64,000 nt of DNA from the NCBI RefSeq assembly GCF_001659685.2, contig NZ_LXYE02000020.1, forward strand, positions 248,001 to 312,000. Direction: 5' to 3'. Position numbers and translations under genes: made by a program. Shown here piece by piece: positions 29,578 to 44,271 of the stretch. The notes beneath the pieces were generated by a model. The model was not told the DNA's origin. It ran no database searches and saw only the letters and a list, made by a program, of their open reading frames with translations. The number at the start of each line of letters is the position of its first letter. The first letter of the stretch is position 1. The stretch is from Labilibacter marinus. GTDB taxonomy: Bacteria > Bacteroidota > Bacteroidia > Bacteroidales > Marinilabiliaceae.

Positions 29578-30057
29578 ATGAAAAATACTTACATATACAT
29601 TGGAGTATCAATAATACTGGCATTAATAGGGTTTATAACGGGGCCACAGTTTATTAAAATCTCAATTCAACAATTAGATTTAAATAACGTTGATATTGTT
29701 TGGCGAACCATGCGAGGACAGTTTTTACAAAATTTTATTTTTAGCATAGCAATTGGGCTATTACCATTTTTACATCTGATATCAACTAAATTGTCAAAGG
29801 CAGATTCGATGGTTAAAAAGTATGTTTCTATTGGAGTTATTCTTATTATAGGAATTGTTTGTTGGCAGTTAAGAATTTTTCAGTTGAACACGATATTTGA
29901 TTCGTATAATCAATTTGAATCGAGCGAAGATATTACCAATCAATACTCCGCTGAAGATTTGAAATTAGGGTATTATTTAATTTATGGATTCATCATCGGT
30001 TTTTTAATGAATACAATTGTACTTAGAATGGTAAATAGAAGAAGTACTGATTATTAA
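29578..30057 (+). CDS. Unrecognised four-helix membrane protein
   Basis: About 159 residues with hydrophobic segments near 5-22, 48-66, 78-98 and 128-148. Start chosen at ATG 29578 because the longer frame opens with TTG at 29545 and adds a polar stretch before the first helix. No family recognised. It is the last of three unrecognised genes and ends before a bidirectional hairpin. Confidence 0.7.
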   Translation: MKNTYIYIGVSIILALIGFITGPQFIKISIQQLDLNNVDIVWRTMRGQFLQNFIFSIAIGLLPFLHLISTKLSKADSMVKKYVSIGVILIIGIVCWQLRIFQLNTIFDSYNQFESSEDITNQYSAEDLKLGYYLIYGFIIGFLMNTIVLRMVNRRSTDY

Positions 30058-30148
30058 AACTGAAGAGCGGAATAGCATATGAAATTATAAAAAAGATGCT
30101 AGTTTGCTATTTTTGTTGATGTTGAAGAGTTGAAGTTAACTTTATAAA

Positions 30149-30182
30149 AAAAACTTGTCCTATTGAAATAAGACAAGTTTTT
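30149..30182. terminator. Bidirectional terminator
   Basis: AAAAACTTGTC (30149-30159) pairs with GACAAGTTTTT (30172-30182), extendable inward with one mismatch. A-rich on one side and T-rich on the other, between convergent genes, so it can work in both directions. Confidence 0.8.
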
Positions 30183-30193
30183 CATTTTATTTT

Positions 30194-30790
30194 TTACTTC
30201 CACTTAATACTACAACCGATTGCTTTAGTAAAATCTACCTTTACCGTTTTGCCTTCTAGTAGGTTATTAACAGCATTTTCAATATGTTTTTCCTTTACAG
30301 CAGAGGCGTTTTGGGTGTTGTCATCAATAGCGCCAATATATCTTACAAATAGCTCACTACCTTTTTTCTGTAGTACAAAGGCATGTGGAGTTCGGGTTGC
30401 ACCATAAGCTTTACCTATCTCTTGCGATTCATCATATAAATAAGGAAACGTAAAACCTTTTTCAGCCGATCGCTCTTTCATTTTTTCAAAAGAATCTGAA
30501 GGATAAGCTTCTGCATCGTTTGAGCTTATTGCAATAACAGGGTATCCTTTTGTTTTATACTTTTTATCCAAGGCTATAATTCTATCCTCGTATGCAACAG
30601 AATAAGGACAGTGATTGCAAGTAAATATTACAATAAAACCTTTAGCCTGATCATAATTGCTTAATGAAACAATTTTATCATCAATATTCTTTAATTTAAA
30701 ATCGATGGCTTTATCTCCTGGCGAATATCCCTTGGAAAAAACACTTAATGATAACAGCAGGGAGAATGCAGTAATAATTAGCTTTTTCAT
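30194..30790 (-). CDS. Secreted thioredoxin-fold / peroxiredoxin-like protein
   Basis: 198 residues with a signal peptide (about 1-19). The thioredoxin-like domain begins GYSPGDKAIDFKLKNID and carries TCNHCPYS, a CxxC active site with the peroxiredoxin-like surroundings of the family often labelled AhpC/TSA thioredoxin-like. TRTPHAFVL near 128-136 supplies the cis-Pro. Probably a periplasmic thiol-disulfide enzyme. It is 38 bp downstream of a TlpA-like gene, likely the same operon. Confidence 0.85.
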   Translation of the reverse strand: MKKLIITAFSLLLSLSVFSKGYSPGDKAIDFKLKNIDDKIVSLSNYDQAKGFIVIFTCNHCPYSVAYEDRIIALDKKYKTKGYPVIAISSNDAEAYPSDSFEKMKERSAEKGFTFPYLYDESQEIGKAYGATRTPHAFVLQKKGSELFVRYIGAIDDNTQNASAVKEKHIENAVNNLLEGKTVKVDFTKAIGCSIKWK

Positions 30791-30828
30791 GTCTCTAAAA
30801 TTTTATGTTGATTGTTAATGATTGTCGA

Positions 30829-31308
30829 TTATAGTTTAGATTGGATTTTGGTATACAGTTCATCGTAAGATAATTGACCCTCATGAAAGGCTCTGTCCTC
30901 TTTTTTGTAGATAATGGTAGCTGGAATACCTCCACTCCAATCTTTATTGACTAAATCAATCCATGAATTACCATCAGGATCGTTTAATAACACCACCTCT
31001 TCATAAACGTGATGTTTTTTCATAAAAGGAATTAAGCGTGATGTTTTATGACTGGCAAAATCTAGGCTCACAAACAAAAACTTAACTTTTTCTTGTTTTA
31101 GTTCTTCTGCCGTTTGTAAAAAGTGAGGAAGCTCTTCAATACATGGTTTACACCAAGTAGCCCAAAAATTTACTACATAAACAGTGTCAGTATTTTTATT
31201 TAAATACGGCTTTAGCTCCTTAAAATTTAGCTCTTTTACTTCTTGAGCAAATGTGATATTACCAAGGCTAAAGAGTATAAAAAGAAAAAAGATATAATGC
31301 TTCTTCAT
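30829..31308 (-). CDS. TlpA-like periplasmic thiol-disulfide reductase
   Basis: 159 residues: signal peptide about 1-21, then a thioredoxin domain with the active site WATWCKPC near 48-55 and GGIPATIIYKK near 124-134 with the cis-Pro. Family members reduce periplasmic disulfides, often for cytochrome c maturation. It heads a two-gene minus-strand set with another thioredoxin-fold protein. Confidence 0.9.
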   Translation of the reverse strand: MKKHYIFFLFILFSLGNITFAQEVKELNFKELKPYLNKNTDTVYVVNFWATWCKPCIEELPHFLQTAEELKQEKVKFLFVSLDFASHKTSRLIPFMKKHHVYEEVVLLNDPDGNSWIDLVNKDWSGGIPATIIYKKEDRAFHEGQLSYDELYTKIQSKL

Positions 31309-31439
31309 AATAAAAGTCTTTAATTATTATAAAAGAAACAATAAGTAGAGTAATCAGTTCAAATTGCTGATTATTAAATATTTTGTATATAAGGAGTAGT
31401 TCTAAAAATAAGTTTGTTTACAATAGATTTTAGCTTGAA

Positions 31440-32249
31440 CTATATTTCAAGAAAATACTTTAGGGTTTTAATAAACAACTCTGTTTGTTCAGCATGTAAC
31501 CAATGGCCTGCGTTTGGTATATCGGCCAATTGAGCAGAAGGAAAGTATTTGCGCATCTGTTGCATATCTTCATCTTGCACATATGGCGACTTGGCACCAC
31601 GAATCATGATAACCGTTTTTTCTTCAGGAAATTCAGGATTAGCTTCAAATTCGCTAACACCATCCATCAATTCATCTAAATGGGTAGAGATGGCATTCAA
31701 ATTTAATTTCCAAAATAGCTTTTTATCTTCACCGCGACCAATGTTCTTCAGTAAAAAAGAACGTACCATATCATTGGGTATACGCTCTTTCAGTATTTTA
31801 TCAACCGAACTTCTGGAAGCATGTTCCGAAGGATTAACCGACAATAAAGCATCTATAATGGTACGATGGTCGTTGGTAATGTGAGCGTAATTACTAAAGT
31901 TGTTATATGATTTAGGAGCAATATCTAATACCACCAATTTATCCACTAATGTGGGATTTTGCAGTGCAAAAGCCATGGCTGTTTTTCCACCCATAGAGTG
32001 TCCCATAATAATGGCTTTATCTAGTTGCTTTTGCTGCATAAAGTCTTTTAAATCCTGTGCCATTACACCGTAATTCATCTCCTGGCTATGTGGCGACATA
32101 CCATGATTTCGCTGATCGATAATAAATATCTTGAATTTATCCTCTAATAAACGAGCTATACTTAGCCAATTATCCGACGAACCATATAATCCATGTATGA
32201 TGATGAGATTTTGATCTCCTTGTCCTAGCTCACGATAGAAAAGTTTCAT
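31440..32249 (-). CDS. Alpha/beta-fold hydrolase (YbfF-like esterase)
   Basis: Cytoplasmic hydrolase of 269 residues. HGLYGSSDNW near 19-28 is the oxyanion-loop motif, GHSMGGKTAM near 82-91 holds the nucleophile Ser, and GHWLHAEQ near 247-254 holds the catalytic His. This set is typical of the YbfF esterase branch. It lies downstream of pdxJ, separated by a strong terminator, an arrangement common in the phylum. Substrate unknown. Confidence 0.88.
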   Translation of the reverse strand: MKLFYRELGQGDQNLIIIHGLYGSSDNWLSIARLLEDKFKIFIIDQRNHGMSPHSQEMNYGVMAQDLKDFMQQKQLDKAIIMGHSMGGKTAMAFALQNPTLVDKLVVLDIAPKSYNNFSNYAHITNDHRTIIDALLSVNPSEHASRSSVDKILKERIPNDMVRSFLLKNIGRGEDKKLFWKLNLNAISTHLDELMDGVSEFEANPEFPEEKTVIMIRGAKSPYVQDEDMQQMRKYFPSAQLADIPNAGHWLHAEQTELFIKTLKYFLEI

Positions 32250-32261
32250 GCTCTTAAATTC

Positions 32262-32307
32262 AAAAAAAACGGTTCTCCATTACCCCTTGGAGCAACAAAG
32301 AACCGTT
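32262..32307 (-). terminator. Terminator of pdxJ
   Basis: On the minus strand AACGGTTCT and AGAACCGTT form a perfect 9-bp stem with an inner TCCA/TGGA helix, followed by eight T residues (plus-strand A-run 32262-32269). Confidence 0.9.
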
Positions 32308-32326
32308 ATATATTTTAGTAATAATA

Positions 32327-33043
32327 CTATTTAACTAGTTGTTGCTTATATAGCTGTATTGTTTTCTCCAGCCCCATATATAGTGCATCGCAAATTAATG
32401 CATGACCAATAGATACTTCTGCTAAATACGGAATGTTTTGTGAAAAGAACTTCAGGTTTTCCAAACTTAAATCGTGACCTGCGTTTATTTTTAAACCCGC
32501 TTTTTTAGCAATCTCTGCAGCTGCCACAAAAGGAGCAACTGCTGCATCTCTGTCCTTAACAAAATCAGTAGCATATGGTTCTGTGTAAAGCTCTATTCTA
32601 TCCGTATTGGTATGTGCTGCAGCAGCCACATTATCTAAATCGGTATCAATAAAAATAGAAGTACGAATACCCGCCTCGTTAAACTCAGCAATTACATCTT
32701 GTAAAAACGATTTGTTTTTAATTGTGTCCCAACCTGCGTTAGAAGTCAGTGCTTCAGGAGGATCGGGCACAAGCGTAACTTGATGAGGTCGAGCTTTTTT
32801 TACCAAATCGATAAAGTCGCTCGATGGATATCCTTCTATATTAAACTCGGTTTTTATAACGGGCACAATATCAAAAACATCCTGATAGCGGATATGTCTT
32901 TCATCTGGTCTAGGATGAACAGTAACACCATCGCCACCAAAATTTTGTACATCAATAGCTGCCTTTAAAACATTAGGTTCTGTACCTCCACGCGAGTTAC
33001 GAAGGGTGGCTATCTTATTTATATTTACACTTAACTTAGTCAT
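32327..33043 (-). CDS. pdxJ: Pyridoxine 5'-phosphate synthase
   Basis: Condenses 1-deoxyxylulose-5-phosphate with aminoacetone phosphate in de novo vitamin B6 synthesis. TIM barrel of 238 residues with the standard start [28 protein letters not shown] near 41-51 with active-site His/Arg, [11 protein letters not shown] near 95-105 and GHDLSLEN near 191-198. Divergent from the CBS-protein operon and ended by its own terminator. Confidence 0.97.
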
Positions 33044-33108
33044 TCTAATTTATTTTGTCATCATACACAGCGAGTTAGTCTAAAACTCAGAAATAAACCA
33101 ATTAATCA

Positions 33109-33140
33109 TTTGATTGTTTCATTTTATGAGACTAAATTTA
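33109..33140 (+). promoter_or_regulatory. Promoter candidate for the CBS-OMP-recO operon
   Basis: TTTG at 33109-33112, a 20-bp spacer, and TAAATTTA at 33133-33140 (7 of 8 with TAnnTTTG). Confidence 0.5.
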
Positions 33141-33220
33141 ATCCTGTGTCTTATAAAAAAAGGAGAAAATTAAATATCTCTCCTCGGCACAAAGTTAAGA
33201 GTATTTCTTGAAACTGTTAT

Positions 33221-33886
33221 ATGTTAGCGAAAGATTTGATATCAGATATAGTTCCTTCTTTAAGAACTTCCGACACGGGCTTAGATGCCCTAAATTGGAT
33301 GGAGGTTTTTAGGGTCTCTCATTTGCCTATTGTGAATAACAAACAATTTTTGGGTTTAGTTAGCGATACCGATATTTATGACCTGAATAAACCTGAGGAA
33401 CCATTAGGTAATCATGAGTTATCTCTTACTACGCCTTATGTTTTTGACAACCAGCATATTTATACTGTCATTGAGCTAGTTTCGCGCTTACAATTAACTG
33501 TTATACCTGTATTGCAGAGAAACAACGAATACATTGGCTTGATTACGCAGGCTGATTTATTAAAGAATTTTGCCGACTTAATTGCTGTGCATACTCCTGG
33601 AGGAATTGTGGAGATTGAAGTTCCATCTTACGATTATTCGCTCACAGAAATAGCTAGAATCATTGAAGATGCCGACACCAAACCACTGAGTTTTTACATG
33701 AGTCAGGATGTAATTAATGATGTATTAAAGATTACTATTAAGCTTAATAGAGAAGATATATCACCTGTTCTTAGCGCCTTTGATAGATATGATTATAAGG
33801 TGACCGCCTCATATTCAGAAAACGATAGTGTTGATGAAATTGTGAAGAAGAATTATGATGCCTTAATAAGGTATTTGAGCGTATAG
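33221..33886 (+). CDS. CBS-domain-pair protein with ACT-like C-terminus
   Basis: 221 residues. Two CBS motifs cover about 1-125 (LPIVNNKQFLGLVSDTDIYD and VIPVLQRNNEYIGLITQADL regions), usually an adenosine-nucleotide sensor. The C-terminal part (about 130-221), with VEIEVPSYDYSLTEIARIIE, looks like an ACT-type regulatory domain. No enzyme is attached. In other Bacteroidota a NAD kinase gene often follows; here a BamA-like gene follows directly after 18 bp. Confidence 0.88.
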   Translation: MLAKDLISDIVPSLRTSDTGLDALNWMEVFRVSHLPIVNNKQFLGLVSDTDIYDLNKPEEPLGNHELSLTTPYVFDNQHIYTVIELVSRLQLTVIPVLQRNNEYIGLITQADLLKNFADLIAVHTPGGIVEIEVPSYDYSLTEIARIIEDADTKPLSFYMSQDVINDVLKITIKLNREDISPVLSAFDRYDYKVTASYSENDSVDEIVKKNYDALIRYLSV

Positions 33887-33904
33887 AAATTATACACTGT
33901 GTAG

Positions 33905-35344
33905 TTGGATATTAATTGGTTAAATAAAAAAGTTAACTTATCGCTGTTTTGTTTTTTTTGTTTTTGTATATGCCACTTGCACCTGCATGCAAATAATAAA
34001 ACCGTAGCAATTGACCTTTCCAAGGCCGAGGATACCCTTGTGGTGAAAAAAATATACATAGTAGGTAACGAAAAGACCAAAGACAAGATAATTTTAAACG
34101 AGCTTCTTTTCAAGGAAAATCAAGGTATTTCTACCAGCCAGCTGTATTCTATGGTCGGCAAATCTCGCCAAAATTTAAAAAACACCTCTCTCTTTAATTT
34201 TGTATATCTCAACTATTGGCTTTTATCCAATCATGAAATTGCCATTGAAGTAAAAGTGGACGAACGTTGGTATTTGTGGGCTCTACCTATTTTTGAACAA
34301 GGCGACAGAAACTTTAGCTCCTTTGTTGAAAGTGGTGATTGGAGTAGAGTGAATTATGGGTTATACCTAAAACAGGAAAACTTTAGAGGAATGAATGAGC
34401 TCATTAAGCTAAAGCTACAGATGGGCTTTAATAATGAAATTGAACTGAGCTATCGGTCAGCAGATTATAACAATAGGCTGAGTTGGGGAACCGTGATGGA
34501 CTACAATACCAATAATCAGGTTTCTTACAATATTGTCAATAATCAACCTATCAATATTAAACACGAGCATGCTGCCATTCAGCAACGATGGTCAGCTAAG
34601 TTATTTTTAAATTACCGTCGTAATTTCGTTCACAGGCACTCTTTTTCAATTGGTTATAATGCCTACCACGTAAAGGATACTTTGGCCAGTTTAAATCCTA
34701 ATTATTTACTGAATGGCAATACTTCTTTAGTTTATTTATCGCTGGGTTATCGATACAATCACGATAAACGCGATAATAGGCCATATCCTTTAAAAGGACA
34801 TTTAGTTCAAGCATCAGTATTGCAAAGTGGTTTGGGTGTAATTTCCGATGAGTATGCTAATTTTTCGGTGAAACTTGGTTTTGAGCAATATGGAAATATT
34901 AATGGGCGATTTTATTACGGTTGGAATATTGGAGGGACTTTAAATACAGCAGAAGAAAGACCTTTTGTGACTAAATCCGATTTAGGTTTTAAGGATTTTT
35001 TAAATGGCTACGAATACAATGTTATTGAAGGAGGTACATTTGGCTATAGTAAGCAAAAAGTTTCTTTTGAGTTAATTCCAACTAAAACGGCATATCTAAA
35101 CTTTATCAATTTAAATCAATTCTCTAAATTTCATTATGCACTATATTTAAAAGCATTTGTTGATGGAGGATATGTATATAATAAACAGCCACAAATAGGA
35201 AATAACTTAAGTAATACATTTATGTATAGTTTTGGATTAGGTGTTGATTTGGTGACCTATTACGATAAAGTATTATCCGTAAATTATTCGGTGAACAAGC
35301 AAGGCTTGGGAGGTTTTTATATTCATTTAGATATGCCTATGTAA
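33905..35344 (+). CDS. BamA/TamA-like outer-membrane protein with POTRA domain
   Basis: 479 residues. Signal-like hydrophobic start, then a single POTRA-like domain (about 45-115, KIYIVGNEKTKDKIILNELLF) and a C-terminal surface-antigen barrel with YNHDKRDNRPYPLKGH near 300 and a terminal barrel strand. Shorter than BamA, which has five POTRA repeats, so probably a TamA-like assembly or export factor. The only start that keeps the signal region is TTG at 33905; the next in-frame ATG falls inside the POTRA domain. The 18-bp gap to the CBS gene suggests translational coupling. Confidence 0.82.
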   Translation: MDINWLNKKVNLSLFCFFCFCICHLHLHANNKTVAIDLSKAEDTLVVKKIYIVGNEKTKDKIILNELLFKENQGISTSQLYSMVGKSRQNLKNTSLFNFVYLNYWLLSNHEIAIEVKVDERWYLWALPIFEQGDRNFSSFVESGDWSRVNYGLYLKQENFRGMNELIKLKLQMGFNNEIELSYRSADYNNRLSWGTVMDYNTNNQVSYNIVNNQPINIKHEHAAIQQRWSAKLFLNYRRNFVHRHSFSIGYNAYHVKDTLASLNPNYLLNGNTSLVYLSLGYRYNHDKRDNRPYPLKGHLVQASVLQSGLGVISDEYANFSVKLGFEQYGNINGRFYYGWNIGGTLNTAEERPFVTKSDLGFKDFLNGYEYNVIEGGTFGYSKQKVSFELIPTKTAYLNFINLNQFSKFHYALYLKAFVDGGYVYNKQPQIGNNLSNTFMYSFGLGVDLVTYYDKVLSVNYSVNKQGLGGFYIHLDMPM

Positions 35345-35386
35345 GTTTAGGGTAAATAGTCTATTTTTGTGAGTAAATTCACAATT

Positions 35387-36115
35387 ATGATTGAATCCAC
35401 CAGAGGAATTGTTTTAAACTATACCCGATACGCTGAAACTAGTATTGTATCGCATATTTATACAGAACAATTCGGGCTTCAATCGTATATGATTAATCAA
35501 GTACGAAGTCGCAAAAACAAGGGTAAAACTGTTTTTCTTCAACCTCTTACATTACTCGATTTAGAAGTTTATCATTCTGAGAAGAAAACAATACATCGAA
35601 TTAAAGATTTTAAAGTAAGTATGCCTTTTATGCAAGTGCCATTTGAGGCTGTAAGGCGTGGTTTAGCATTTTTTATTGCAGAGGTATTGAACAAGGCACT
35701 AAAGCAAGAAGATAAGGCGGTAGAAGGTTTGTTTGATTTTTTGCATCAATCCATTTCTATATTAGATGGTAATTTACCAGGCGTTCATAATTTTCATCTG
35801 TTTTTACTATTCAGATTAACGCGACTGTTAGGTTTTTATCCACATTTTAAAGATTCAGATAATTGCAAGTTTTTTGATTTAAAAACGGGTATGTTTCAAG
35901 TCACAGAGCCAGTGAGTCAGGAATACATGAATTATGTAGAAACAATGATTCTTTTTCAGCTACAAAATATCGGTATTGATGAACTCGATCAACTAACTTT
36001 ATGCAGCGAAGATCGGAGCTCATTTATTGATAAAATGCTGCAGTATTACCACCTTCATTTATCAGGGTTTTCAAATATTAAATCCTTTGAAGTCCTCAAG
36101 GAAGTTTTCCGGTAG
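35387..36115 (+). CDS. recO: DNA repair protein RecO
   Basis: RecFOR-pathway protein that loads RecA onto SSB-coated DNA. The OB-fold start ESTRGIVLNYTRYAETSIV and VFLQPLTLLDLEVYH near 56-70 are typical, as is the helical middle with FLLFRLTRLLGFYPHF. About 242 residues from ATG 35387; a GTG six codons upstream is less likely. The zinc-finger cysteines of some RecO proteins are mostly absent (one Cys at DNCKFF), as in relatives. Confidence 0.9.
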   Translation: MIESTRGIVLNYTRYAETSIVSHIYTEQFGLQSYMINQVRSRKNKGKTVFLQPLTLLDLEVYHSEKKTIHRIKDFKVSMPFMQVPFEAVRRGLAFFIAEVLNKALKQEDKAVEGLFDFLHQSISILDGNLPGVHNFHLFLLFRLTRLLGFYPHFKDSDNCKFFDLKTGMFQVTEPVSQEYMNYVETMILFQLQNIGIDELDQLTLCSEDRSSFIDKMLQYYHLHLSGFSNIKSFEVLKEVFR

Positions 36116-36208
36116 TAAAATAATAACAGGTGTTTACCTAAGAATAAACTATTTCTATGGGAAACCCTTATAATATCAGAAAAACTTTTGTAAATTGTAT
36201 ATCGCTCG

Positions 36209-36216
36209 TAGTTGTG
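36209..36216 (+). promoter_or_regulatory. Weak promoter candidate before the aminotransferase-like gene
   Basis: TTTG at 36187-36190, an 18-bp spacer and TAGTTGTG at 36209-36216. The 207-bp gap also holds an 11-nt direct repeat AGGTGTTTACC at 36129-36139 and 36251-36261. Confidence 0.35.
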
Positions 36217-36322
36217 AGGCTATAAATAATAATAGCAGATCCTGAAAAATAGGTGTTTACCACTGCTGTAATGCGACTCTTTTTTTGCGAACCAAACTGT
36301 TTTATTAGACCTAATAATTGTA

Positions 36323-37456
36323 ATGATATCACTTAACCTAGAAAATATAACTTCTCCTAAAGCAATTGTAGAATATGCTCGGGAATCTTCTTGTTTAAAC
36401 TTAGCCGAAAGTCATTCGGAAATGAGTTGTAATAAGGAGCTTGAGGACTTGGTGAGTAAATATATTTTGCCTTATGCAAATATGTCCTCTCCAAAGTTTG
36501 GTTTACCAGATTTAAGGAATGCCATCGCGAGTAAAATTGAAAAATTATACGACCATTCTTATAATTCAGATACTGAATTAACGATAACTGCTGGCGTTAA
36601 GCAAAGCGTTTTCTGCACTATTTTGGCTTTGTTGAAAGAAGGCGATGAGGTATTGGTATTTGAACCAGCTCACAAAAGTTATGAAGAAGCCATTAAGTTG
36701 GCTGGTGCGCGTCCTGTATACGTTTCGTTGGAGGCTCCTAAATTTGTGGTTAACTGGGAAGATGTTCAAAAGTTAATTACTACGAAAACGCGGATGATTA
36801 TTGTTAATTCACCGCATTTTCCATCAGGTTCTACTATGTCGGAATTAGATATGATTCGGCTACAGAAAATTTTAAATGGAACCAATATTGTGGTGGTCAG
36901 TGATGAGTCCTTTGAGCATATGGTTTTTGATGCAGAAATGCATCAGAGTGTAGCCTTGTATCCGTTGCTGAGAGAACGAAGTGTAATCGTATCATCGTTT
37001 AATGAAACGTTGAATATTCCCAATTGGCATATTGGATACTGTATTGCTTCGGAAAAATTAATGAAGCAGATTCGAAAAGTGGTATCTATAGTTGGAGAGG
37101 GGATTAACTTGCCTTACCAAATGGCCATTGCCGATTATTTAAAAGACCATAGTAATTTTAGTGAGTTGTCTACATTTTATCAGAAAAAGCGAGATTTATT
37201 TTTTTTTCATATTGAAGATTCAAAGGTAAAGGCAATCCCTTGTAAAGGTTCCTATTTTCAATTGATTACAATAGAGGGCGTTGCGGATAAAACAGATTTA
37301 GCCTTGGCTATCCGATTAATGGAGGAACAAAATTTGGCTACTGTGCCTATTAGCTTTTACTATCACGAAAATAGCAAGAAAAAATATCTTAGAGTTAATA
37401 TTTCTGTTGCAGATGAGGTTTTAGTTGAAGCTGCCTCCAGATTAAAAAAGGTATAG
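36323..37456 (+). CDS. Aminotransferase-fold protein lacking the PLP lysine
   Basis: 377 residues with the whole fold-type I aminotransferase plan (class I/II, methionine-aminotransferase-like): FGLPDLRNAIASKI near 59-72, TITAGVKQSV near 89-98, GDEVLVFEPAHKSYEEAI near 111-128, NSPHFPSGS near 161-169, DESFEH near 193-198 and the C-terminal YLRVNIS with the substrate Arg. The lysine that should form the Schiff base, in a motif normally S-F-x-K-T, is Glu at residue 228 (SFNETLNIPNWHIGY). The DESFEH Phe and HFP also deviate from DEVYEH and HNP. It is therefore probably not a normal aminotransferase. The frame is otherwise intact. Monocistronic. Confidence 0.85.
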   Translation: MISLNLENITSPKAIVEYARESSCLNLAESHSEMSCNKELEDLVSKYILPYANMSSPKFGLPDLRNAIASKIEKLYDHSYNSDTELTITAGVKQSVFCTILALLKEGDEVLVFEPAHKSYEEAIKLAGARPVYVSLEAPKFVVNWEDVQKLITTKTRMIIVNSPHFPSGSTMSELDMIRLQKILNGTNIVVVSDESFEHMVFDAEMHQSVALYPLLRERSVIVSSFNETLNIPNWHIGYCIASEKLMKQIRKVVSIVGEGINLPYQMAIADYLKDHSNFSELSTFYQKKRDLFFFHIEDSKVKAIPCKGSYFQLITIEGVADKTDLALAIRLMEEQNLATVPISFYYHENSKKKYLRVNISVADEVLVEAASRLKKV

Positions 37457-37540
37457 CACCACCCTGTGATTATTTATGCTGCAAAAATGCTGACTAATTG
37501 TATTTTAAGTGCGATTGGTCGAATTCACAATTATTATAAT

Positions 37541-37548
37541 TAAGTTTG
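37541..37548 (+). promoter_or_regulatory. -7 element (TAAGTTTG) of the LytS/LytTR operon
   Basis: TAAGTTTG matches TAnnTTTG and lies 33 bp before the kinase ATG. The -33 position is not a clear TTTG. CGAATTCA lies just upstream (37520-37527), similar to the repeat unit found before the barrel gene at 40555. Confidence 0.45.
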
Positions 37549-37580
37549 TTATAATAATAATGTCTTAAGAATAAACCTGT

Positions 37581-39521
37581 ATGATTTTAGCCCTAATCAA
37601 ACCCAAAATATGGTGTTTGTTATTATTGATCTTACTTATTCATCCATCTCAAATGGTTGTTGGGCAGACCATATCACGAGATGTTTTCTTAAACGACTCC
37701 ATATCACAGCAGATTAAGCTAGCAAAAAGTGACACAACTATGATGTATGGTCTCCTGAAAAGTATCAGAAGACATCGTAGGTCATTAAAAAAATATTACA
37801 AGCCTTTATTGGTAATCTATGTTGGGCTTTCTAAGGATGTTGGATATAGATATGGCGAGATGAAATCGTTGGATATTTTAGGATTGCAAGAGCGTTACGA
37901 TGAGAATTATGATAAATCTATCAGTCTTCATAATGAGTCTCTTCAAATCGCGTTGCAGTTAAAGGACTCTTCACAATTATGCTACAATTATAATAATTTA
38001 GGACAGGCTTATCGCAAGCAAGATTTAAATGAGTTAGCCATCAAATATTTTTATCTGGCTTTAGAAATGTATGAACATAAAGGTATGACTCGCCAAGCGT
38101 CTTATACGCACAATACGTTAGGAGCCACTTATTTTGCGCAAGATGAATACGATAAGTCAGCTTATCATTTAAATGTATCTTTGAATTTAGCCATAGATAA
38201 TAAGGATAAAAGAACGATGTCGTATAATTACGGTTCCTTGGGTGAAATAATGCTGAAACAGAATAAAGGGGATGAAGCCTTAGCTTATTTTAAAAAGGCT
38301 TTAAAGATAAAGGAGGAATTGAATTACGATAAGGGAATGGCCGTAACCTATCATTTAATGGGTGAAGCCTGGTTTATGAAGAAGAATTATCCTGTCTCTA
38401 TTCTTTGGTTTCAAAAGGCAATTAAAATTCATGAAAAGTATAATACACAACGTTACTTATCCCATTGTTATGCATTTTTGGGAAAAATAAGCTTAGCGAA
38501 GAATGAATTAAATAATTCAACTAAATATTTAGATAAAGCTGATCAATGTGCAGAAAATGTGCATTCTATTGAAAATTTAATATTGATTGGTGATGCTAAA
38601 GTAGAATTGTTAGGGAAGCAAAATAGATGGGAAAAAGCTATGCAAATAATGGCTAATACAAATAGCCTTAGAGATAGTATTAGAATGGCCCGATATCAAA
38701 AGGAAATTCAAACATTGGAAATAGGATATCAAACGGAGCAAAAGGAACAGCAAATTGAGATACTGTCGGCAGAAAACCAAATTAAAAATCAACGACTTCG
38801 ACTGGGGATTGCTATTATTGTTATTCTGGTTTTGGGTTTAGCTTTTGCTTATTCAGTAATCGTTTCTCGCAAACGAACGACAAAACTAAAAGAGGAAAAA
38901 TTACAACAGCAGTTGTTGAAATCGCAAATGAATCCTCACTTTATATTTAACGCTTTGGCTAGTATCCAGAATTATATGTATCGTAATGATCCAAAGAAAG
39001 CGGCTCGATTTATGGGTAATTTTGCTTCGTTGGCTCGTTCTATATTAAATAATTCTAGTGCAGATTATATTAGTTTAGAGGAGGAAATTAATACACTACA
39101 AAATTATTTGGAGTTAGAGCAGATGAGAGGGAATGGTTCATTTTCTTATAGCCTAAATTATGATGATGATTTAGAAACTGAGTTTATTCAAATACCTCCA
39201 ATGTTATTGCAACCTTTTATCGAAAATGCCATTAAACATGGTGTTAAAGATATGGATTCAGGAGGTCTTATCGAGTTGAATATATTGGATAAAGAAGATT
39301 TACTTTATGTAGAAGTTGAGGATAATGGAGTAGGTATTAAATCTTCGGAAAACAGAAAAAATAATGGTCATGTTTCTATGGCTACTAGTATATTTAAACA
39401 ACGGATTAGTATTTTAAAAAGTAATTACCCTAATTTACCTGAACCTGAAATGATTGATTTGAGTAATGAAGGGGGTAGGGGAACTTTGGTAAAAGTGTAT
39501 TTACCTATTTTAAACGAATAG
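37581..39521 (+). CDS. TPR sensor histidine kinase, LytS type
   Basis: 646 residues. Signal peptide or first TM about 10-28; about six tetratricopeptide repeats from about 100 to 350 (for example SYNYGSLGEIMLKQNKGDEA and relatives) in the periplasm; coiled coil; TM about 410-430; then the His_kinase domain with phospho-His H453 in QMNPHFIFNAL and ATPase residues PPMLLQPFIENAIKHG and VEDNGVGI. Followed after 4 nt by a LytTR regulator, its evident partner. Confidence 0.94.
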   Translation: MILALIKPKIWCLLLLILLIHPSQMVVGQTISRDVFLNDSISQQIKLAKSDTTMMYGLLKSIRRHRRSLKKYYKPLLVIYVGLSKDVGYRYGEMKSLDILGLQERYDENYDKSISLHNESLQIALQLKDSSQLCYNYNNLGQAYRKQDLNELAIKYFYLALEMYEHKGMTRQASYTHNTLGATYFAQDEYDKSAYHLNVSLNLAIDNKDKRTMSYNYGSLGEIMLKQNKGDEALAYFKKALKIKEELNYDKGMAVTYHLMGEAWFMKKNYPVSILWFQKAIKIHEKYNTQRYLSHCYAFLGKISLAKNELNNSTKYLDKADQCAENVHSIENLILIGDAKVELLGKQNRWEKAMQIMANTNSLRDSIRMARYQKEIQTLEIGYQTEQKEQQIEILSAENQIKNQRLRLGIAIIVILVLGLAFAYSVIVSRKRTTKLKEEKLQQQLLKSQMNPHFIFNALASIQNYMYRNDPKKAARFMGNFASLARSILNNSSADYISLEEEINTLQNYLELEQMRGNGSFSYSLNYDDDLETEFIQIPPMLLQPFIENAIKHGVKDMDSGGLIELNILDKEDLLYVEVEDNGVGIKSSENRKNNGHVSMATSIFKQRISILKSNYPNLPEPEMIDLSNEGGRGTLVKVYLPILNE

Positions 39522-39525
39522 TAGT

Positions 39526-40275
39526 ATGATTTCGGCGGTAATAATTGACGATGAAAAGGATTTAAGAGCTCTTAATGCCTCAATGATTAAAGATAATTTT
39601 CCCGACATTAATATTGTTGGTGAGGCTGACTCTGTTGATGGTGGGGTGAAATTGATTCAAGATACTAAACCAGATATTGTACTATTAGATATTGAAATAA
39701 AGGGAGGTACTGGGTTTAATATTCTGCAAAAATTACATCCTTATAATTTTAAGCTGATTTTTATTACAGCCTTTAATGAGTTTGCCATTAAGGCCATTAA
39801 GTTTAGTGCCATGGATTATATCCTAAAGCCAGTAAATGAGTACGAGTTTATTGAGGCTATTAAAAGAGTAGTGGAGCAAATTTCGGTGGCAGATAATCCT
39901 GTGCAATACAATAATTTTTTATCGCATTACGAGAAAAAAACGCAAACCAGAAAATTAGTTTTGCGCACAGCAGAGGCTTTACATTTAGTGGATGTGAAAG
40001 ATATTATTTATTGTAAAAGTGACAATAGCTATACTACTTTTTACTTAAACAATGCCAATCATGTAATGGTATCTAAATCGATGAAGGAATACGCTTCTAT
40101 TCTGGAGGAATACGAGTTTGTACGTCCACATCAATCGTTTTTGGTAAATCTAAAATACATTAGTAAAATTGATAAAAGTGATGGTGGTTTTATCATCTTA
40201 TCCAATGGGAAAGAAATACCGGTATCATCTAGGCGTAAACAGCCTCTAATTCAGATTCTAGAACAATCGTGCTAA
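39526..40275 (+). CDS. LytTR-type response regulator
   Basis: 249 residues. Receiver domain with DDE at 8-10 and phospho-Asp D55 in LLDIEIKGG, switch Lys in YILKPVN; LytTR DNA-binding domain from about 140 (LVLRTAEALHLVDVKDIIYC and HQSFLVNLKYI). LytTR proteins bind two 9-bp direct repeats with centres about 21 bp apart; three ATTCAA repeats with exactly that spacing lie 165 bp downstream of this gene, upstream of the barrel gene. Confidence 0.95.
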   Translation: MISAVIIDDEKDLRALNASMIKDNFPDINIVGEADSVDGGVKLIQDTKPDIVLLDIEIKGGTGFNILQKLHPYNFKLIFITAFNEFAIKAIKFSAMDYILKPVNEYEFIEAIKRVVEQISVADNPVQYNNFLSHYEKKTQTRKLVLRTAEALHLVDVKDIIYCKSDNSYTTFYLNNANHVMVSKSMKEYASILEEYEFVRPHQSFLVNLKYISKIDKSDGGFIILSNGKEIPVSSRRKQPLIQILEQSC

Positions 40276-40440
40276 AGCTTTCTTTAAATTCATCGATAGA
40301 GAGTTTGTTCATGCGCCTATTATGGTTTTAGTATGCTTTTTTCTATAATATCACTCTCAGTATTAATGTTTCGTTTCTATTTGTAATTTATTCTGTCTGT
40401 TCTAAGTCAATGCTCCTCTAGTTAAGGTATATAAAATCAA

Positions 40441-40488
40441 ATTCAAGATGCTTATGCACGAATTCAAGTATAGACAGTGCATATTCAA
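40441..40488 (+). promoter_or_regulatory. Three ATTCAA repeats at 21-bp period (candidate LytTR sites)
   Basis: ATTCAA at 40441-40446, 40462-40467 and 40483-40488, exactly 21 bp apart; the first two extend to AATTCAAG. They end about 30 bp before the -7 element at 40519, where an activator would bind. Assignment to the adjacent LytTR regulator is inference. Confidence 0.55.
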
Positions 40489-40518
40489 ATATACTTCAAT
40501 AATCATATCGAATAGCTT

Positions 40519-40526
40519 TAGTTTTG
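40519..40526 (+). promoter_or_regulatory. -7 element (TAGTTTTG) of the barrel-protein gene
   Basis: TAGTTTTG fits TAnnTTTG and lies 28 bp before the ATG. The -33 site is poor, as expected for a promoter that needs an activator. Confidence 0.55.
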
Positions 40527-40554
40527 AATCGAAATTAAATTTAAAACTTAAATT

Positions 40555-41145
40555 ATGACATTCAAGATGAGAAGCTTAGTGGTTATTTGTGTATTGTGTC
40601 TTTCTGCTGCGTTTGCATCAGCACAAGAATCAAAATTTATGGCCGGTGGTGGTTTAACTTACGCCACAGAAATTAAAAATGTAGGTATTAATGTAAAAGG
40701 ATTATATCTATTTAATGATAAATGGGAAGCGGATGGAGGATTTACTTACTTCTTTAAAAAAGACTATACTACTTGGTCGGCACTTGATTTTAATGGACAT
40801 TATGTTTTAGCTAGCGCTGAAGGTAAAACCTTATATGCCTTAGCTGGTTTAAATATGACTTTTTATAAGATTGATCTGGATGATGCTGTTGGTGACGCAT
40901 TGGGTAGTTTAGGTGAAGAGTTGGACGGAATGATGGAAGAATATGGAAGTGAGTATAACCCTTATGGAGATTCGTATAGTTCAATGGGAGGTTTCGATGA
41001 TTCTGGTAGCGAAATCGGTATTAATATTGGTATTGGAGGTAGAATGCCTATTTCATCTAAGCTTAACTTAACTGGAGAACTAAAATACACTTTAGGAGGT
41101 GCTGATTATTTAAGCCTCGCGGTAGGTGTAATGTATGCTTTTTAA
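40555..41145 (+). CDS. Small outer-membrane beta-barrel protein
   Basis: 196 residues: signal peptide about 1-23 (ending FASA), then an eight-strand-type barrel ending GVMYAF with terminal Phe. An unusual acidic, Gly/Ser/Tyr-rich loop occupies about 118-148 (GSLGEELDGMMEEYGSEYNP and on), likely surface-exposed. No known ligand. It lies behind the LytS/LytTR genes with its own promoter and upstream repeats, and is the likely target of that system. Confidence 0.85.
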   Translation: MTFKMRSLVVICVLCLSAAFASAQESKFMAGGGLTYATEIKNVGINVKGLYLFNDKWEADGGFTYFFKKDYTTWSALDFNGHYVLASAEGKTLYALAGLNMTFYKIDLDDAVGDALGSLGEELDGMMEEYGSEYNPYGDSYSSMGGFDDSGSEIGINIGIGGRMPISSKLNLTGELKYTLGGADYLSLAVGVMYAF

Positions 41146-41230
41146 TATTTGTAGATAGCGAAAATAAGTGATTTGAGACAAGCGATTACCCTCGGGTTAA
41201 ATAATGATGATTAAGGTTAGGGTAATTTTG

Positions 41231-41259
41231 GCTTCCTCTTTTTTAAGAGGAAGCTTTTT
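41231..41259 (+). terminator. Terminator of the barrel-protein gene
   Basis: Perfect 10-bp stem GCTTCCTCTT (41231-41240) / AAGAGGAAGC (41245-41254) with TTTT loop and T-run 41255-41259, just before the convergent transporter's stop codon. Confidence 0.92.
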
Positions 41260-41263
41260 ATTT

Positions 41264-42856
41264 TCAACCAAATGAGGCTAATATCTGAACACAAATAATT
41301 AATAAAACCATGGCTACTGGATAAACCGTAGCATAAGCAATGGAGGGAGCATTAGTTTCAGTCATAGGGTCAACGGCTGCTAATCCTGGAGTACTAGTCA
41401 TTGAGCCCGTTAAAGCTCCTAACATAGAAAGTACATTCACCTTAAATATCCAACGCGCTACAGCTGCTCCTAAAATCATTGGAATTAAAGTTAAACATCC
41501 GCCAACTAAAAATAGAGTAAAGCCATATTCGTTAAAAGTACTTACAATGTGCGCTCCTGCTTTTGTACCTACACCAGCTAAAAAGAACATTAACCCTAAA
41601 GTTCGTAGTAATTGGTTGGCACCACCTGACATAGACCAAATAATAGGTCCTGTTTTACCAATTCTACTTAAAATCATAGCAACAGTTAAAACGCCTCCTG
41701 TTAAACCTAAAGAAAAGGTAAAAGAATGACCAAAGTTGAGTGAGAATTTACCCAAGAAAAATCCTAATACAATACCTGCTGCAATAGGGAAAAAGTTAGT
41801 ATCAGAAAGCTTCTTACTATTTCCACCAAAAATCTTGGTCACCATTTGCATATGTGCTTTGCTACATGAAATTTTTATTTTATCACCCATCTGTAATCGT
41901 AAGTTTGGAGTAGGTGTAATATCTATACCCGAACGTCTTACTCTGGTGATAGTGACATTATATGTGGCTGTCCATTGATAAATTTCCTTAATGGTCTTAT
42001 TCATCACATTGGCATTAGAAACTAAGATAGATTGTATCTCATAACCTTCCTTTAAAGGAATTTCTTCCTTTGTTTCGCTTCCTATTAATAGTTCTACTTT
42101 ATTTAAAGCATCCTCTGTTCCTACTGCCTTAATAATATCGCCTTGATTAAGCACGGTATTGGAAGAAGGAACCTGAGGTTCTCCTTTGGTTTTAACGCGT
42201 GAAATAACACCCTGTGTCATGGTTCTAACCCTAAGTTCTCCAATAGTTTTGCCTGCAACATTATCGTTTTCTACCACAAAGTGTTTAAAGGAAATTTCAG
42301 GAAAACTTTCTTCTGATGATTTTTCGTACTCCTCTTCTGCTTTTTTCAGATTAATTCGTGTAAACTTTGGGTATAATCGTACAAATAGAATAACACCAAT
42401 AACACCAAAAGGGTAGGCAATACCATAACCAATAGAAACACCAGTAGAGCCAGTGCTCTCAATGGCTGCAGCTAGACCTGGTGTACTAGTGAGAGCTCCT
42501 GTTAGTAAACCAATGGCTACTGGTACTTCAATGTTAAAAAGTACAATAGCTAAATAGGTTAAGATGGATGCCGATATAATAACAACAGTTGCCATTACTA
42601 CTAAAGTACGTCCCTGCTTTTTAAAGGAGTCAAAAAATCCAGGACCAGCCTGAATACCAATTGTATATACGAATAAAATTAAGCCAATTTTTTCAATGAT
42701 AGAAGGCATAACCACGCCATAATGACCAAATACTAAAGCCACAAATATAATAGCCGAAATATCTAGGGATATTCCTTTTATTTTAGCATTTCCGATGATG
42801 TATCCCAAACATATTATAACAAATAAAGCGAAGTAACCTTGTTGTAAGTATTCCAT
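41264..42856 (-). CDS. AAE/YidE-family transporter with two TrkA-C domains
   Basis: 530-residue membrane protein of the aspartate:alanine exchanger (YidE/YbjL) family. Two membrane halves (about 1-165 and 360-530) each hold a GALTxSTPGLAA motif (GALTSTPGLAAA and GALTGSMTSTPGLAAV), showing the internal duplication. Between them lie two RCK/TrkA-C domains (about 195-280 and 285-360). It could exchange amino acids or dicarboxylates; the substrate is unknown. Monocistronic and convergent with the barrel gene. Confidence 0.9.
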   Translation of the reverse strand: MEYLQQGYFALFVIICLGYIIGNAKIKGISLDISAIIFVALVFGHYGVVMPSIIEKIGLILFVYTIGIQAGPGFFDSFKKQGRTLVVMATVVIISASILTYLAIVLFNIEVPVAIGLLTGALTSTPGLAAAIESTGSTGVSIGYGIAYPFGVIGVILFVRLYPKFTRINLKKAEEEYEKSSEESFPEISFKHFVVENDNVAGKTIGELRVRTMTQGVISRVKTKGEPQVPSSNTVLNQGDIIKAVGTEDALNKVELLIGSETKEEIPLKEGYEIQSILVSNANVMNKTIKEIYQWTATYNVTITRVRRSGIDITPTPNLRLQMGDKIKISCSKAHMQMVTKIFGGNSKKLSDTNFFPIAAGIVLGFFLGKFSLNFGHSFTFSLGLTGGVLTVAMILSRIGKTGPIIWSMSGGANQLLRTLGLMFFLAGVGTKAGAHIVSTFNEYGFTLFLVGGCLTLIPMILGAAVARWIFKVNVLSMLGALTGSMTSTPGLAAVDPMTETNAPSIAYATVYPVAMVLLIICVQILASFG

Positions 42857-43181
42857 GAGTATTTTAGATTAGGCTTGCAAATATAACTATTTATCAGGCT
42901 TTTATAATTGATGAAATGAAATTGTAGTGTTTATTAACATTAGTTAAAAGTTGAACATTGTAACATTTGAAACTATGTGCATATGTTGCATACGTTTGTA
43001 ATAAATAATCATTCAGTAAGTTGAGCTGCTTGCAATGTCTCATATTTACAATTCTACGTGTTAGGGGTGCTTACGGCAATTGCTAATTAATGTTAATAAT
43101 TTGATGGTGCGATAACACTTAGGAGCTTTACGCCTTACATTTGCCGCATATTGTAAGAAACACCTATAATCTAGTTACAAA
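42857..43181. other. 325-bp intergenic region with a -7 element
   Basis: No gene. TACATTTG at 43136-43143 fits a -7 element for the histidine-rich barrel gene (ATG 43182), without a -33 TTTG at the right distance. GTGCATATGTTGCATAC near 42975-42991 is a short dyad-like string. Nothing else was found. Confidence 0.4.
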
Positions 43182-43781
43182 ATGAACTTCTTAAAATTAA
43201 TGACGCTATGTTTAGCGTTAGTTTTTGGTGCCGAAATGTCGGCACAGCATGAGGATGTACAACATCATGAACATGGCTCATCGAATCATCACGCTATAGA
43301 AAAACACGAACATGGCAAGCACAAGCTGGCTTTTTATTCGGGTTTTACACATGTTGCAGCGGCTTTTTATGAGCACGAAACACATGAAGAAAGCACCGGA
43401 AAATGGATTCCGACTTTGGGAGCAGAGTATTATTATACGCTATCTAAAAAGTTTGATATTGGTTTAATTGCTGATATTGAGCTGGATGAATATTATATTC
43501 GTGAAAAGAATGAGGATGAGTTATTAAGAAATAATATTGTTATTGCAGCTGCAGTAGCTAGATATAAACCTATACCTAGATTGGGTATTTTTGCAGGGCC
43601 TGGATTTGAAACTGAATTTATTGAGAATGAAGATTCTAAATCCTTTATGGTTATTAAAGTAGGAATTGACTATGAGGTAGAGATAGAAAATGGATGGGAA
43701 CTTACACCTATATTCTCTTACGATTGTAAAGAGGAGTATTCCTCATATTCCTTTGGTATTTCTATAGGGAAGAGATTTTAA
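43182..43781 (+). CDS. Outer-membrane barrel-like protein with His-rich N-terminus
   Basis: 199 residues: signal peptide about 1-21 (ending EMSA), then a 26-residue segment with nine His residues (HEDVQHHEHGSSNHH and on), then a barrel-like domain of about 150 residues ending GISIGKRF with terminal Phe. The His cluster suggests binding of Zn, Ni or Cu at the outer membrane or a metal-linked role. No known family assigned. It stands alone with its own terminator. Confidence 0.75.
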   Translation: MNFLKLMTLCLALVFGAEMSAQHEDVQHHEHGSSNHHAIEKHEHGKHKLAFYSGFTHVAAAFYEHETHEESTGKWIPTLGAEYYYTLSKKFDIGLIADIELDEYYIREKNEDELLRNNIVIAAAVARYKPIPRLGIFAGPGFETEFIENEDSKSFMVIKVGIDYEVEIENGWELTPIFSYDCKEEYSSYSFGISIGKRF

Positions 43782-43805
43782 AACACAATATTACAAGATA
43801 ATCAC

Positions 43806-43838
43806 AAAAAGCATCCTAAATATCTAAGGGTGCTTTTT
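43806..43838. terminator. Terminator shared by convergent genes
   Basis: AAAAAGCATCCT (43806-43817) pairs with AGGGTGCTTTTT (43827-43838), one G-T pair, with a T-run on the plus strand and an A-run on the left. It overlaps the stop of the minus-strand gene at 43816. Confidence 0.85.
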
Positions 43839-44271
43839 TTAATTCAACAAATCGGCTTATTTCTTCGGTTTCGAAACCAAAGGATTTAATCCAATGAAGA
43901 GCTTCGTTTTCCGATTTAAAAACTCTTGTGTTTACATGAATATTGCGCAGATAAAATGAAAAGACATAGGCTTTCATAACATCAAAAAACTTTGAATTAA
44001 CTACAATAGCATTACACTTATAATTAACCGTGTTAGCAATACGTTTTATGGTTTTATTAATCTCAAAGGCAGCCTGATGCTCTGATAATACCATTTCTTT
44101 AAAGTTGCACAAAGTAGCAAATTGAGAATGGTTATATTCGTTCAGCATTTGTTTAGCAATGTTATCAAAATAAAGTGCTTCCTCTTTACCATGATGCCCC
44201 ATGGTTTTAAAGTATGCTAAATCATGATACATACGTATGCAAAAGTGTGAGTTGTCAATCTCAATAGTCAT
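43816..44271 (-). CDS. Unrecognised 151-residue cytoplasmic protein (SpoIIAA-like?)
   Basis: No signal or membrane segment. Its alternation of strands and helices with FKSENEALHWIKSFG near the end resembles the SpoIIAA/STAS-like fold seen in small regulatory proteins, but I do not see a conserved phosphorylatable Ser motif. Upstream of the DUF1456 gene's stop by 99 bp on the same strand. Function unknown. Confidence 0.7.
   Translation of the reverse strand: MTIEIDNSHFCIRMYHDLAYFKTMGHHGKEEALYFDNIAKQMLNEYNHSQFATLCNFKEMVLSEHQAAFEINKTIKRIANTVNYKCNAIVVNSKFFDVMKAYVFSFYLRNIHVNTRVFKSENEALHWIKSFGFETEEISRFVELKKAPLDI

Follow-up and report, generated by a model that had tools for sequence, protein, structure and literature searches.

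Pseudoenzymes have been best studied among kinases. The fold class considered here is dimeric with shared active sites, and it includes SPTLC1/LCB1, a fold-type-I subunit of serine palmitoyltransferase that lacks the Lys and is kept for structure and regulation. In the excerpted account of PMC8987622, ColD, E1, and SpnQ are PMP-dependent sugar 3-dehydratases with the aminotransferase fold, in which the Schiff-base Lys is changed to His. Rv3778c of M. tuberculosis, a PLP-enzyme homolog without the conserved Lys, is judged likely non-catalytic in the excerpt of PMC12910592, and the yeast aminotransferase homolog ScAlt2 was, according to the excerpt of PMC5960717, retained after losing its ancestral activity. 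Neither a Lys-less YbdL homolog nor a recO-linked aminotransferase appeared by title or abstract among the literature matches listed, which is weak evidence of absence, as few subscription journals are covered.

Here we describe a gene from a 64,000-nucleotide stretch of Labilibacter marinus DNA (the window), whose product carries Glu at the position of the Schiff-base Lys. The aminotransferase fold and the replaced Lys are shared with ColD, E1, and SpnQ, but these proteins have His at the site, keep a PMP site, and act in sugar-nucleotide pathways, as far as the excerpted source describes them (PMC8987622). His occupies the site in only 1 of 47 genomes of the family of L. marinus (Marinilabiliaceae), and the cofactor-binding residues at 93, 117, 166, 197, and 236 are changed or variable, the comparison being with canonical aminotransferases and not with ColD itself. 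Rv3778c differs in being kin to cysteine desulfurases and selenocysteine lyases and not YbdL-type, on the excerpt of PMC12910592. The likeness to ScAlt2 would be that the ancestral activity is lost and the protein still kept (PMC5960717, in the part excerpted).

A YbdL-type protein with Glu at the Schiff-base position

The open reading frame begins with ATG, encodes 377 residues before its stop, and has no internal stop (Table 1). By sequence, the closest solved structure is 1u08, YbdL of E. coli (phmmer, E 5.3e-73), and the alignment is free of gaps across the motifs: SSFNET is aligned with SSFGKT, HFPSG with HNPSA, and DESFEH with DEVYEH. The Lys of SSFGKT is presumably the Schiff-base (PLP-binding) Lys of YbdL. 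An earlier note on this DNA had read Glu in place of the PLP-binding Lys and drift in the two neighboring motifs; the GAA codon and the gapless YbdL alignment confirm the first reading, and the 1u08 alignment bears out the second.

The fold appears to be intact. An AlphaFold2 model from 52 input sequences has a mean pLDDT of 92.8 and a pTM of 0.91, and its top Foldseek match is again 1u08 (TM 0.95, 32% identity). The protein passes the gathering score of Pfam Aminotran_1_2, the model of the fold-type I superfamily (138.3 bits against 19.7, residues 57-374). DegT_DnrJ_EryC1 also scores above its cut-off (28.5 bits against 19.8) but is restricted to residues 104-194, and with this partial 28.5 bits against 138 for Aminotran_1_2 the protein is not placed in the DegT-type subfamily, to which we take ColD, E1, and SpnQ to belong. 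The best NCBIfam model is NF006569 (methionine aminotransferase; 368.2 bits, residues 17-377), whose curated cut-off of 420 is not reached, as is the case for every NCBIfam cut-off among the matches listed (best 25 of 73 models).

Table 1 Features of the locus, in window positions
Feature	Position	Strand	Basis or comparison
recO, conserved upstream neighbor	35369..36115	+	RecO_N and RecO_C; 47/48 own-family carriers
Conserved promoter-like block AAAAACTTTTGTAAATTG	36180..36197	+	Nine same-genus loci, between recO and the gene
Probable Lys-less YbdL-type pseudo-aminotransferase, 377 aa	36323..37456	+	ORF, 1u08 match, Aminotran_1_2
Phe166, at the presumed PLP-ring Asn position	36818..36820	+	HFPSG versus HNPSA; variable in own family
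Residues 174-187 (helix 174-184 and turn), strongest conservation gain	36842..36883	+	Invariant columns, permutation
Phe197, at the presumed PLP-O3' Tyr position	36911..36913	+	DESFEH versus DEVYEH; Phe in 38/41 Glu-bearing copies
GAA, Glu228, at the presumed Schiff-base Lys position	37004..37006	+	Alignment to YbdL, own-family table
His236, at the presumed PLP-phosphate Lys/Arg position	37028..37030	+	Gln in 31/41 Glu-bearing copies
Arg357, presumed substrate-carboxylate Arg, retained	37391..37393	+	40/41 Glu-bearing copies

The absence of Lys extends to the whole family. The gene is present in 48 of 71 own-family genomes, the carriers spanning 15 genera. Of these, 47 have a readable site, with Glu in 41, Gln in 3, His, Thr, and Ile in 1 each, and Lys in none. 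The Gln, His, Thr, and Ile that replace Glu228 all fall within one own-family subclade. The search for a clade that conserves Glu228 and the structural modeling suggested in the earlier note yielded a YbdL-type protein from a clade with mostly Glu and never Lys, and a confidently predicted fold. Since GAA (Glu) and AAA (Lys) differ by one base, a mutation or a sequencing error confined to one genome could be imagined; it is refuted by Glu in eight of the nine same-genus genomes, the ninth (G008) holding residues 1-115 only, cut before the site by a contig end, and we give it practically no weight.

Two outcomes were named in advance as contrary to the absence of the Lys, namely close relatives with a normal Lys and another conserved Lys at the Schiff-base position. 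The former were not found in the 47 readable own-family genomes, nor was the latter among 33 members, in which Lys is absent from invariant columns and from columns conserved at ≥90%. Lys71 was considered as a replacement and rejected: it occurs in 38 of 41 Glu-bearing copies and just as well in the Lys-bearing ones (28/28).

Cofactor pocket, conservation, and selection

The PLP and substrate positions 93, 117, 166, 194, 197, 225, 236, and 357 were compared according to their canonical roles. In canonical homologs, we take 166 to be an Asn contacting the PLP ring, 197 a Tyr contacting PLP O3', 236 a Lys or Arg binding the PLP phosphate, and 357 the substrate-carboxylate Arg. YbdL and the Lys-bearing homologs of the order share with the window protein the fold (TM 0.95), the gapless motifs, Ser225, Trp235, and Arg357. 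At the cofactor site, the window protein has Glu where YbdL has Lys, Phe where it has Asn, Phe where it has Tyr, and His where it has Lys. Among the Glu-bearing own-family copies, position 93 is Thr, Ala, Lys, Ser, or Gln; 117 is Asn, His, Tyr, or Cys; 166 is Asn, Ala, Phe, or Ser; 197 is Phe; and 236 is Gln or His. Ser225 (40/41), Trp235, Asp or Glu at 194, and Arg357 are mostly retained.

Over eleven PLP and substrate positions, mean conservation is 0.966 in a canonical set (n=51) and 0.671 in the own family (n=45), against all-column means of 0.690 and 0.637, respectively. The canonical set has one member per family, chosen for Lys228, Tyr197, and Arg357 and for the lack of a recO link; without the selection positions 197, 228, and 357, the pocket still averages 0.95 versus 0.61. 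The 108 other columns that are equally conserved in the canonical set have an own-family mean of 0.773, and 704 of 20000 matched random column sets were as low as the pocket, so the change in the pocket exceeds general drift only moderately. Copies of ≤340 aa were excluded from the conservation counts.

A gain in conservation is the clearer signal. Among stretches of 14 columns, residues 174-187 gain the most, and none of 2000 column permutations was as high, with the proviso that the columns depend on one another and that a single clade makes up the own family. E174, D176, R179, L180, and Q181 show no variation among the 33 own-family members compared. In the predicted secondary structure, the stretch is a helix and turn preceding strand 190-194, which would put it on the side of the sheet opposite the cofactor loops; judging by this topology, the helix probably faces away from them.

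Purifying selection on the protein is strong in the own family, as estimated by the Nei-Gojobori method, for which each set was represented by at most its 25 most similar pairs. In the own family, four pairs with dS <0.4, one of them Gln-bearing, gave dN/dS values of 0.033, 0.042, 0.052, and 0.063, and eight pairs with dS of 1.3-3.0 gave rough values of 0.016-0.025; Lys-bearing pairs of other families gave 0.027-0.108. Reading frames are intact in the listed full-length own-family copies, in agreement with the earlier remark that the gene has no signs of decay. A search at E ≤ 1e-60 gave no match in 24 of the 71 own-family genomes, including one in which a contig end cuts the gene short, and some of these assemblies are incomplete; the gene is thus dispensable in some lineages. 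These absences would fit a dying enzyme gene on its slow way to loss, but the dN/dS values of 0.033-0.063, the intact frames, the new invariant positions, and the spread over 15 genera make such decay very improbable.

With the Lys absent family-wide, the fold predicted to be intact, and purifying selection acting, the protein is probably a YbdL/methionine-aminotransferase-type pseudoenzyme that is retained for binding or regulation. This was one of the possibilities raised in the earlier note, and the absence of Lys from the clade, the lack of any invariant Lys, the changes in other PLP contacts, and the purifying selection support it well. However, the predominance of Glu228 and the retention of Arg357 would also be expected of a Lys-independent enzyme, which could use PMP, non-covalent PLP, or another substrate with Glu228 as acid/base, in the manner of the His of the PMP-dependent 3-dehydratases. 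Such an enzyme is suggested by the Glu that 41 of 47 own-family genomes have there, by the mostly retained Arg357, Ser225, Trp235, and Asp/Glu194, and by the existence of Lys-to-His PMP enzymes with the same fold (PMC8987622, as excerpted). On the other hand, one subclade has Gln, His, Thr, or Ile instead of Glu, other lineages have Pro, Val, Ile, or Arg, and there are no sugar-nucleotide genes among the eight window neighbors scanned. The canonical phosphate, stacking, and ring contacts at 93, 117, 166, 197, and 236 are also replaced or variable. Because several PLP contacts are gone and Glu228 drifts, a PMP enzyme, as proposed earlier, becomes less likely, and we regard Lys-independent catalysis in general as rather unlikely. 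The variable phosphate, ring, and stacking contacts and the drift of Glu also disfavor the proposed PLP/PMP sensor. The protein may sense an amino acid or another ligand, as the presumed substrate-carboxylate Arg357 is retained in 40 of 41 Glu-bearing copies.

Another possibility is that the protein, itself without catalysis, pairs with an active aminotransferase paralog in a heterodimer, similar to SPTLC1. The dimeric class with its shared active sites and the eight more distant homologs in the own genome are in line with this arrangement. SPTLC1/LCB1 itself belongs to the alpha-oxoamine synthase lineage and has an obligate active partner. However, the next homolog in the own genome is 28% identical to the window protein and the others are no closer, so no Lys-bearing YbdL-type copy coexists there. 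Own-family genomes have no second copy at E ≤ 1e-60 except for two pieces of one split gene, and Tyr55, which we take to reach the site of the neighboring subunit, is retained in just 11 of 40 Glu-bearing copies. A heterodimer is therefore improbable, and a pseudoenzyme acting as a binding or regulatory protein is still the reading we prefer.

Changes of the Lys state in the order and class

In the sample of the order (Bacteroidales), a search at E ≤ 1e-60, in which at most five candidates per genome were scored, matched 142 of 393 genomes. Every match beyond the own family was inspected, 140 copies from 56 families. The site is Lys in 131, Pro in 3, Ile in 2, Arg in 2, Val in 1, and Glu in 1. 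Set against these 131 of 140, the lack of Lys in 47 of 47 readable own-family genomes exceeds chance. In the class sample, 320 of 395 genomes match at E ≤ 1e-100; among the best-scoring 29 loci, which were fetched and inspected, 28 of 28 outside the own family have Lys and one own-family copy has Glu.

The single Glu outside the own family is found in one f90 copy, in a genome where a Lys-bearing copy coexists. Family f72 has Pro in 3 of 3 copies, and the fold of one such Lys-to-Pro homolog is also predicted to be intact (pLDDT 92.0, pTM 0.91). In family f97, represented by one genus, the site reads Lys, Lys, Val, and Ile (L019, L043, L153, and L180), and each of these copies has Gly in place of the substrate-carboxylate Arg. 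Arg occupies the site in one of three f82 copies and one of four f55 copies, and Ile in one of two f11 copies.

In a tree of 74 rows, the Lys-bearing rows form one side of a branch (100/99), and five changes, the minimum possible, account for the six residue states. When atypical copies were added and the tree was rooted with YbdL (103 rows), the Lys state needed seven changes, a count of changes on a quick tree without bootstrap in which 40 of 99 inner branches are weak; well-supported branches require at least five of them, all inside a single subclade of 63 rows (SH-aLRT 96). The changes in the order would most simply be read as losses. L009 and L017 were left out of the first tree and L009, L016, and L017 out of the second; L130 (an 876-aa frame) was left out of the later alignments and L002, a distant paralog, out of all.

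recO and the surroundings of the gene

In 47 of 48 own-family carriers, the gene is preceded on its own strand by the DNA-repair gene recO; in the 48th, the contig ends 78 bp past the gene. The gap between the two genes ranges from 64 to 626 bp and is 130-254 bp in 35 of the 47. recO clustered in 39 of the 41 loci compared, and the next most common neighbor in 19. In the own-family locus L077, the whole recO was missed by the frame-based scan and found by similarity, which may reflect a frameshift or an assembly error. As the Lys-less gene is intact across the family beside recO, a different, non-enzymatic job is probable.

Outside the own family, 15 of 140 homologs are recO-linked. Lys is absent from 5 of the 15 linked copies versus 4 of 125 unlinked ones (Fisher p 0.0007, a count that treats related genomes as independent and from which contig ends can hide links). 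Counted per family, 2 of 6 recO-linked families (scored by the linked copy) are Lys-less, versus 3 of 50 without a linked copy plus one unlinked f82 copy, so the independent evidence for the association is thin. The linkage appears to be common in lineages that gave up the enzyme role.

The Lys-bearing homologs of the order keep different company from the window protein with its recO: 67 of 121 unlinked copies adjoin a carbon-nitrogen hydrolase gene (NF007757 amidohydrolase), which we take to be omega-amidase-type. Such a gene adjoins none of the 10 recO-linked Lys-bearing copies and none of the 9 Lys-less copies of the order. A loss of the gene together with its pathway was rejected as an explanation, as 61 of 71 own-family genomes have an omega-amidase-type homolog (36-46% identity). 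In every genome with both genes, the two are on separate contigs or more than 1 Mb apart. Two of these omega-amidase-like genes, G449:C1:227899-228642 and G455:C163:137-886, have one in-frame stop each.

Other neighbors were considered and set aside. Some 3 kb from the gene, on the opposite strand, is pdxJ (vitamin B6 biosynthesis; window 32327-33043), but it is near recO in just 4 of 41 loci, the window included, and PdxJ was rejected as a partner. A GH3-family gene directly follows drifted homologs in f97, f82, and f64 (L228:334-1890, L019:1-1392, and L224:467-1981), and the one copy tested is related to the OlsH (lyso-ornithine-lipid synthetase) model, below its cut-off; the GH3 homolog of the own genome is on another contig. 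By clustering, with one copy tested (L228:3939-5108), porZ (type IX secretion) immediately precedes recO in four other families; the own genome has it about 100 kb off on the same contig. No Rfam match at gathering score was found within window 30000-44000.

The earlier note had also given the gene its own promoter-like element. In support of this, GTAAATT within the block AAAAACTTTTGTAAATTG is unchanged in nine same-genus loci, in a spacer that mostly drifts, and a pattern derived from these loci matches the 6.03-Mb own genome once, at the block itself. A sigma-70 consensus scan, however, gave 7 matches against 6.6 expected, which is the level of chance. A terminator scan near the gene was not above chance. 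The spacer also contains a perfect 11-bp direct repeat, AGGTGTTTACC (window 36128-36138 and 36251-36261), which is absent from the other spacers searched and was dropped as a conserved element.

On the preferred reading of a pseudoenzyme, the window protein would form no internal aldimine without the Lys and would not transaminate, and it would be retained as a folded, probably dimeric binding protein. Its newly constrained surface would be helix 174-187, on the opposite side of the sheet from the old cofactor loops, and the remodeled pocket, with Arg357 and mostly Glu228, may still hold a small ligand, e.g., an amino acid. The state of this ligand could be passed to a partner, and a physical link with RecO is possible. 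A more specific proposal is that a recO-coupled non-enzymatic protein binds an amino acid or metabolite without PLP and signals it to a partner, possibly in RecO-dependent repair, and that such proteins arose repeatedly in the order once the enzyme adjoined recO; taken as a whole, this is unlikely, and we offer it tentatively.

From a biological perspective, the homologs of this group comprise Lys-bearing relatives, copies with the Lys and a drifted pocket, species of one genus that carry Lys (two copies), Val, or Ile, and losses on several separate occasions, and they form a series ready for testing the transition from enzyme to non-enzyme in a protein that is still selected. They also provide a warning, as the protein passes the Pfam aminotransferase cut-off and yet is probably no aminotransferase across a bacterial family. 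For this family, the near-constant recO neighbor provides a concrete candidate partner.
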